Positions 13,946 to 15,858 of a stretch of 37,202 nt of DNA are shown piece after piece. The position numbers and the translations under genes are program-made. This DNA is from an uncultured beta proteobacterium (GTDB lineage Bacteria; Pseudomonadota; Gammaproteobacteria; Burkholderiales; Burkholderiaceae). The DNA lies in NCBI GenBank assembly GCA_903858445.1, contig CAIOIX010000245.1:1-37202 (forward strand), in the 5' to 3' direction. Under the pieces are notes generated by a model. The model made no database searches. It was not told the DNA's origin and worked only from the letters and a program-made list of their open reading frames with translations. How positions within the stretch are numbered: position 1 is the first letter of the stretch; the number at the start of each line of letters is the position of its first letter.

Positions 13946-14317
13946 ATGAACGAGCAACTCAAAACTATTCTGAGCAAAGCGAAGCTCAATTTTGCAGTGC
14001 TCACTGCTATTGTGCTGATGGCTATTTTGGGGAAGATCACCAACCCCGAGCTAACAAATCAAATTTTTGAGACTGCCGACAAACTGGTTTCAGATCTCAT
14101 TTTGATTTTTGTAGCCATCACCCTAGGAGCCTTTTTTCCTCAATTTAAGTTAGTTGTCCTAGGATCAATTGGCGCATTCATTGCAGCTGCAATTGCCATT
14201 CAACTGGGCATCTTCACTTATCTCACTACTGACTATCTTTTCTCAGTCTTGATTGTGGTGCTGGGGTTTGCATCCATTGCTAACCTCTACAGACACTATC
14301 GAGAATTTGGTCTCTAA
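13946..14317 (+). CDS. Hypothetical membrane protein (123 aa)
   Basis: Three hydrophobic stretches; close downstream of the previous gene. Confidence 0.6.
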   Translation: MNEQLKTILSKAKLNFAVLTAIVLMAILGKITNPELTNQIFETADKLVSDLILIFVAITLGAFFPQFKLVVLGSIGAFIAAAIAIQLGIFTYLTTDYLFSVLIVVLGFASIANLYRHYREFGL

Positions 14318-14327
14318 GAACGTTATG

Positions 14328-14337
14328 AAAAAGCCCC
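14328..14337. terminator. Left arm of a rho-independent terminator split by the IS (right arm 15795..15804)
   Basis: AAAAAGCCCC here is the exact reverse complement of GGGGCTTTTT at 15795..15804; it lies 10 nt after the stop of the 13946..14317 ORF. Confidence 0.8.
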
Positions 14338-14345
14338 GATTGAAT

Positions 14346-14369
14346 GAACTGACCCACAAAAGTTGGACA
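14346..14369 (+). repeat. IS left terminal inverted repeat
   Basis: Exact reverse complement of 15765..15788. Confidence 0.93.
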
Positions 14370-14397
14370 CCCAATCCAACTAACAGGGGTCAGATTC

Positions 14398-14931
14398 ATG
14401 AGCAAACACAGTCCGCAGTTCAAGCTAGAAGTAGTTAATGATTATTTAAGCTTTGGCAGCTATTTAAGGGTCGCCAAGCTATATGGTGTCCACACCACTG
14501 ATGTTCGTAAATGGGTAATGGCTTATCGGCTACATGGGTCATCAAGCCTTTATCAGCGTAGCTATCAACAGTATGCCCCTGCATTTAAAGTGGAGGTTCT
14601 TGAGTACATGCGTACTCATGGTCTCTCGCCACGCTTAGCAGCTGGTCACTTCAATATTGCCTCTCCCAGCACCATCTTGGTTTGGCGGCGCCTCTACAAT
14701 GAAGGTGGCATTACAGCCTTCCAATCAAAACCTGAGGGACGACCGCCCATGTCAAAGCGAAGTGAGATCCAAGCACTCCTAGCCAAACCTTCAGAGCAGC
14801 TCACGCATGAAGAGCTATTGCGCAAGTCGTACTACTTAGAGGTGGAGAACGCTTATCTAAAAAAGCTCGAAGCCTTAGCGCAGCAGAAGTACTTGGCAAG
14901 CAAGAGCAAGTCCAAGCAATTACTGAGCTAA
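14398..14931 (+). CDS. IS3-family transposase OrfA (helix-turn-helix)
   Basis: FKLEVVNDYLSFGSYLRVAKLYGVHTTDVRKWVMAYRLHG, duplicated HTH. Confidence 0.9.
   Translation: MSKHSPQFKLEVVNDYLSFGSYLRVAKLYGVHTTDVRKWVMAYRLHGSSSLYQRSYQQYAPAFKVEVLEYMRTHGLSPRLAAGHFNIASPSTILVWRRLYNEGGITAFQSKPEGRPPMSKRSEIQALLAKPSEQLTHEELLRKSYYLEVENAYLKKLEALAQQKYLASKSKSKQLLS
14859..14865 (+). other. Probable programmed -1 frameshift site A_AAA_AAG joining OrfA to OrfB
   Basis: Slippery heptamer in the correct orfA phase (CTA AAA AAG); -1 frame open through to the orfB start (KKARSLSAAEVLGKQEQVQAITELRQQYPLQTILGVANMPRSVYYYQ). Confidence 0.8.
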
Positions 14932-14972
14932 GGCAGCAATACCCCTTACAAACCATTCTAGGCGTTGCCAAT

Positions 14973-15758
14973 ATGCCTAGAAGTGTCTATTACTACCAAC
15001 TAAGCGTCAGAGGTAAGGCCGATACCTATCTAGATGTCAAGACTCGGATTGGCGTGATCTACCATCGCCACAAGGGTCGTTATGGCTATCGGCGGGTGCA
15101 AACAGAGCTCGGGCACGAGAAGTGCCATCTAAACCCTAAGACCGTCCAAAAGTTAATGAGTAAGCTCGGTCTTAAGTCAACCGTTCGCCCTAAGCGTTAT
15201 CAATCCTACAGGGGGCCTGAAGGCAAGGCGACGCCCAATTTACTGGAACGTAAGTTCAGTGCAGCTAAGCCCAATCAAAAGTGGGTGACCGATGTCACCG
15301 AGTTCAATATCTTAGGTCAAAAGGTGTATCTCTCACCCGTATTAGATCTGTACAACCAAGAGATCATCTCCTATGAGATCGCCGATCGCCCCCAAATGAG
15401 TATGGTGATGCAAATGCTTCAAAAGGCTTTTAAGAAACTCAAACCACAAGACAATCCCATGCTGCACTCAGATCAAGGTTGGCATTATCGAATCGCCCCA
15501 TACCAGATGGCTCTCAAGCAAAAAGGCATTACTCAAAGCATGTCTAGAAAAGGAAACTGCTTAGATAACGCGGTGATGGAGAACTGGTTTGGGATTATGA
15601 AAACCGAGTTCTTCTACCAAAAGAAGTTTGACGATGTTCAATCATTTAAAACAGAGCTTAAGGAATATATCAACTACTACAATCATGATCGAATCAAACA
15701 AAAACTAAAGGGATTGAGCCCGGTGCAATACCGAACTCAATCCCTTCTGGTAACCTAA
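14973..15758 (+). CDS. IS3-family transposase OrfB (DDE integrase, rve domain)
   Basis: WVTDVTEF, HSDQGWHY, NCLDNAVMENWFG catalytic DDE motifs intact. Confidence 0.93.
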   Translation: MPRSVYYYQLSVRGKADTYLDVKTRIGVIYHRHKGRYGYRRVQTELGHEKCHLNPKTVQKLMSKLGLKSTVRPKRYQSYRGPEGKATPNLLERKFSAAKPNQKWVTDVTEFNILGQKVYLSPVLDLYNQEIISYEIADRPQMSMVMQMLQKAFKKLKPQDNPMLHSDQGWHYRIAPYQMALKQKGITQSMSRKGNCLDNAVMENWFGIMKTEFFYQKKFDDVQSFKTELKEYINYYNHDRIKQKLKGLSPVQYRTQSLLVT

Positions 15759-15764
15759 TCAAAC

Positions 15765-15788
15765 TGTCCAACTTTTGTGGGTCAGTTC
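15765..15788 (-). repeat. IS right terminal inverted repeat
   Basis: Exact reverse complement of 14346..14369. Confidence 0.93.
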
Positions 15789-15858
15789 AATCGTGGGGCT
15801 TTTTACTTCTGGATCTTTGTAGCGCGTCTTTATCCACATACACAAAGGAGCATCGCTG

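Follow-up and report, generated by a model that had tools for sequence, protein, structure and literature searches.

The insertion sequence (IS) found in this 37,202-nucleotide stretch of DNA (hereafter the window, always taken at its full length) is very probably one copy of a large IS150-group lineage that, judging from the sites where its copies survive, inserts at the dyad centre of intrinsic-terminator hairpins. A preliminary description of the window had suggested, on the strength of this single copy, that the element is related to the IS150-group inserters into REP loops and targets terminator hairpins. The suggestion holds over many copies, of which 32 of 37 in the Polynucleobacter group and 29 of 39 in other taxa interrupt a stable hairpin at its centre, although the window copy itself turned out to be a composite.

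The element is an intact IS3-family insertion sequence of 1445 bp (positions 14345 to 15789, plus strand) with TG...CA ends and recognisable transposase domains. Alignment of full-length Polynucleobacter copies, in which a T precedes GAACTG and an A follows CAGTTC, sets its true termini as TGAACTG...CAGTTCA. The left inverted repeat, TGAACTGACCCACAAAAGTTGGACA (14345 to 14369, plus strand), spans 25 bp and recurs with the same sequence on the minus strand at the right end (15765 to 15789), so that the repeats are perfect, as had been stated before. OrfA (14398 to 14931, plus strand) is a helix-turn-helix transposase subunit of 177 amino acids with the Pfam domains HTH_28 and HTH_Tnp_1. The OrfB frame (14811 to 15758, plus strand; 315 open codons, first ATG at 14973) carries a DDE integrase core (Pfam rve, rve_2 and HTH_21) that scores 308.6 bits against the IS3 transposase model NF033516, and the residues D127, D187 and E223 of its DD(35)E catalytic triad are invariant in our alignment A1. 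This frame lies at −1 relative to OrfA, and an A6G slippery run, AAAAAAG (14859 to 14865, plus strand), is the presumed site of the frameshift. Such an organisation, together with the matching inverted repeats, TG...CA ends and target site duplications (TSDs) of 3-4 bp in 21 of the 37 Polynucleobacter-group copies, within the 3-5 bp usual for the IS150 group, places the element in that group, alongside the similarly organised IS150 and ISKpn8.

The element occurs in 54 of 186 genomes of the genus Polynucleobacter, and the source genome itself contains the window copy, a second full copy 74% identical to it and nine partial ends, nearly all of these adjoining an A-tract and a half-stem. The analysis covered full-length elements for which both flanks were available, 37 in the Polynucleobacter group (one of which comes from a Gallionella MAG) and a further 39 in other taxa, once the loci with too short a flank or with unrecognisable ends had been left out; a Variovorax locus (L286) was put aside for want of credible ends. 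Each empty site was rebuilt by removing the IS and one copy of the duplication, and was then folded. An initial test that folded a 46-nt window proved too permissive, with 43-48% of the random and flank controls passing it, so that a centred hairpin with a dG of −8 kcal/mol or lower and a loop of at most 9 nt was demanded instead.

Under this stricter criterion, centred hairpins were found at 4.2% of random genome positions, at 3.7% of random intergenic positions, and in the flanks of the same loci at rates of 3.6% (genus) and 12.2% (other taxa), far below the 32 of 37 and 29 of 39 given above, counts whose independence is incomplete where a genome contributes identical copies with the same transposase. 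None of nine other IS3-family elements of the genus occupied such a hairpin. The sites also bear the tails of terminators: a strong A or T tract adjoins all 37 Polynucleobacter-group copies, and strong A and T tracts stand on both sides of 24 of the 37. Among 2576 random centred hairpins, 13 are flanked in this way, and the excess indicates that the genus copies select terminators and not just any hairpin. An additional set of 45 half-ends shows the same signature, with an A tract in 44 and a strong one in 40 (31% and 8.5% at random positions). The preliminary description had stated that copies within genes or in non-palindromic DNA would speak against hairpin targeting. One copy (L081, on contig C18 of genome G099) does lie inside a coding gene, which reads like a pyruvate oxidase, and shows a single terminator-like half-site and no hairpin.

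It could be argued that the element inserts widely and that only harmless intergenic copies close to terminators persist, as nearly all copies are intergenic and random hits in genes would be purged. This form of survivorship seems highly improbable to us, given how rarely random intergenic positions and the other IS3 elements of the genus meet centred hairpins. Moreover, harmlessness would not favour disruption of the exact dyad over landing beside a terminator, and the stem sequence follows the lineage of the transposase, as described below.

The insertions are tightly centred, with the middle of the hairpin at most 1 nt from the middle of the insertion in 62 of 76 copies. The duplication often coincides with the hairpin loop, as in the typical sites CCACC-CGAA-GGTGG and CCACCC-TTCG-GGGTGG, and the commonest combination of duplication and loop lengths is 4/4, followed by 3/4, 3/5 and 3/3. 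In 9 of the 37 Polynucleobacter-group copies the duplication measures 0 bp. Six CCACC-type copies (L104, L105, L106, L108 and L109 in genome G005 and L096 in G047), all from complete or good genomes, have no exact duplication while their arms form one terminator.

Intact orthologous terminators, which the preliminary description had proposed to seek in an IS-free strain, were found for three sites: those next to recQ, to a gapA-like gene and to tRNA-Asn. The terminator upstream of recQ is uninterrupted in at least 13 relatives and occupied in the source genome (G000) and in G109, and the tRNA-Asn terminator is occupied in G000 and G005. These occupied sites are read as separate insertions.

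In the case of the window copy, AAAAAGCCCC (14328 to 14337) and GGGGCTTTTT (15795 to 15804) are indeed exact reverse complements, and the flanks, once joined, give a fold of −20 kcal/mol, where shuffled versions average −12 (z −3.15) and 3 of 200 fold equally well. From this complementarity, the preliminary description had taken the arms as two halves of one ancestral terminator, flanked by an AAT duplication. This duplication has to be dropped, since the ends defined by the full-length copies lie at TG...CA and leave flanks that match by 1 bp only (A), as against the 3-4 bp duplicated around most sister copies. The arms themselves derive from two distinct terminators, both with GCCCC stems. 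The left one (AAAAAGCCCCGATTGAA, 14328 to 14344, plus strand) belongs to a terminator 3′ of the ORF at 13946-14317, and its true partner lies on contig C413 of the source genome, at a half-end whose outward sequence, starting right after the IS, begins with TTGAATCGGGGCTTTTT. This outward sequence is syntenic in genome G146 with the DNA directly downstream of the homologue of the ORF, and overlaps the left flank of the window copy by 5 bp (TTGAA). The right arm (ATCGTGGGGCTTTTT, 15790 to 15804, plus strand) comes from the terminator upstream of recQ, whose orthologous intact sites in relatives read GCCCCGCATGACGTGGGGCTTTTT and lie between tRNA-Ser(CGA) and recQ, the tRNA gene preceding the terminator in all three cases checked. 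No homologue of the ORF adjoins recQ in any of the relatives searched. A search of the source genome for the left partner on the recQ side led to tRNA-Ser on contig C311, followed by unrelated DNA.

A single insertion into a single terminator would account for two arms that are complementary and fold together; nevertheless, it is unlikely in view of the syntenic left-arm partner on C413 with its 5-bp overlap, the location of recQ elsewhere in the relatives and the lack of a TSD, which a composite origin explains. The flanking sequences thus suggest that the window contig (C245) connects two IS-interrupted terminators with no relation to each other. Both recombination between IS copies and an assembly error fit this junction, the latter being somewhat more likely because the source assembly consists of 477 contigs, carries about 6% contamination, and identical IS copies are easily mis-joined. 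Being a composite of two insertions, the window copy is by itself weak evidence of targeting. Close to the join, near 16 kb, the GC skew of the contig flips from negative to positive.

On a maximum-likelihood tree of OrfB, the choice of stem, as read from the occupied sites, tracks the transposase lineage: copies in CCACC/GGTGG stems cluster, with 3 changes compared with a mean of 15.2 after shuffling. Genome G005 harbours a CCACC subfamily (L104-L109) together with a subfamily that uses a different stem (L082-L084), and the Gallionella copy has retained the CCACC preference in another host. In the non-CCACC lineage the stems are varied (GCCCC, GGACTCC, GACCTC, GGGGGC and GGCCCGC), and all of them are palindromic. 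These lineage-specific stems offer natural variants for locating the transposase residues that choose the target. Palindromes of the CCACCYGAAGGTGG type are unusually frequent in the two Polynucleobacter genomes inspected, with 24 unoccupied CCACC palindromes in G005 and 51 in G006 (13 and 11, respectively, for reversed-pattern controls).

Regarding the recognition step alone, and not the targeting as such, the transposase could read the base sequence of a half-site (an A-tract and a GC-rich motif, for example CCACC) in normal duplex DNA, in which case the capacity to form a hairpin would be incidental, as terminators are palindromic anyway. The lineage specificity of the CCACC stems would favour such base contacts, and the copy within the pyruvate oxidase-like gene, with one good half-site and no hairpin, also agrees with them. 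Yet the non-CCACC stems range from GCCCC to GGCCCGC and always remain palindromic, which would favour recognition of symmetry or structure. Altogether, half-site reading is a real possibility, even if we lean against it.

Both IS2 and the IS3 family are described as transposing through a minicircle intermediate, in a copy-out, paste-in fashion, and the IS3 minicircle junction attacks target DNA symmetrically (PMC3299598). By analogy with other IS3 elements, the OrfAB frameshift product would form a minicircle that attacks a site laid out as A-tract, GC-stem, loop, GC-stem and T-tract, with the element entering between the arms. A symmetric transpososome would then place two strand transfers, staggered by 3-4 bp, on either side of the dyad of the palindromic target, and the loop would be the segment that becomes duplicated, as observed. 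The same preference for palindromes could produce the insertion of ISKpn1 into REP sequences.

Similar insertions extend well beyond Polynucleobacter. OrfB relatives with 54-75% identity occupy similar loops in Cupriavidus, Bordetella, Halomonas, Cellvibrio, Kosakonia, Rahnella, Lachnospiraceae and others, and so does a copy on a Brevibacillus plasmid. The 29 of 39 centred hairpins outside the genus belong to other Pseudomonadota and to Bacillota, ISKpn1 included, and several of the ten copies that fail the strict test stand in palindromes devoid of A/T tails. Three Pseudomonas copies (L217, L221 and L228, with ends TGATCTGACCCCG) share one long palindrome of this tailless kind, which is possibly another repeat family. 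In Klebsiella pneumoniae, loci 99.9% identical to elements annotated as ISKpn1 lie in REP-like palindromes, and the Kosakonia and Rahnella relatives of ISKpn1 lie in terminators. This arrangement suggests that REP targeting may be a special case of terminator targeting, on a tree too poorly resolved to give the direction of change.

A broader scenario, to which we give slightly less than an even chance, is that insertion at palindrome centres is ancestral in this IS150-group branch of Pseudomonadota and Bacillota, with terminators as the usual target and the REP targeting of ISKpn1 and IS1397 as a derived state. Under this scenario, the transpososome would read symmetry or an extruded hairpin, the stem preference would evolve between subfamilies and the element would carry an antisense terminator of its own.

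Insertion of IS3-family elements into REP palindromes, by ISKpn1 and IS1397 among others, was already known. The OrfB tree places ISKpn1 among these IS150-group relatives, its TG...CA ends and 3-4-bp duplications are the same, and the genus copies share the insertion at palindrome centres with the REP-targeting elements. The difference lies in the target, which for ISKpn1 and IS1397 is a repeated REP unit, whereas the Polynucleobacter copies occupy many diverse and unrelated intrinsic terminators with A/T tails. ISPsy8, an IS3-family element of Pseudomonas syringae, is described as inserting, with a 3-bp duplication, on the axis of symmetry of a hairpin predicted within a REP (PMC1525189); as described there, its targets are P. 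syringae REP sequences only and terminators are not implicated. Bacterial group IIC introns also land at intrinsic terminators (PMC3522654, PMC7923331), but they are retroelements that retrohome downstream (3′) of the stem, whereas the window lineage has a DDE transposase and enters the loop. Among the copies inspected of two elements of the same group, neither one copy of Escherichia coli IS150 nor two of ISKpn8 showed a strong terminator site. No report of an IS lineage with the loop of intrinsic terminators as its main target was found in the open-access literature.

Almost all bacteria have terminators, and these are located between genes. A transposase directed at their loops would find ample landing space outside genes, which may allow the element to spread without gene disruption and could account for the wide distribution of the lineage. 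Conversely, copies in terminator loops systematically split terminators, and could change the read-through between adjacent genes.

A last feature is a hairpin within the final codons of the transposase gene (15707 to 15747, minus strand). This hairpin is more stable than expected from synonymous-codon shuffles, with a median z of −2.5 in a set of 55 sequences that includes two control elements without the hairpin, and it is conserved in relatives across phyla and also in the IS150 of E. coli. The minus-strand tail that follows it is T-rich, a bias partly forced by lysine codons. Stability and tail together give it the look of an inward-facing antisense terminator, which is the probable nature of this motif as predicted from its fold, and which would shield the element from transcription entering at its right end.
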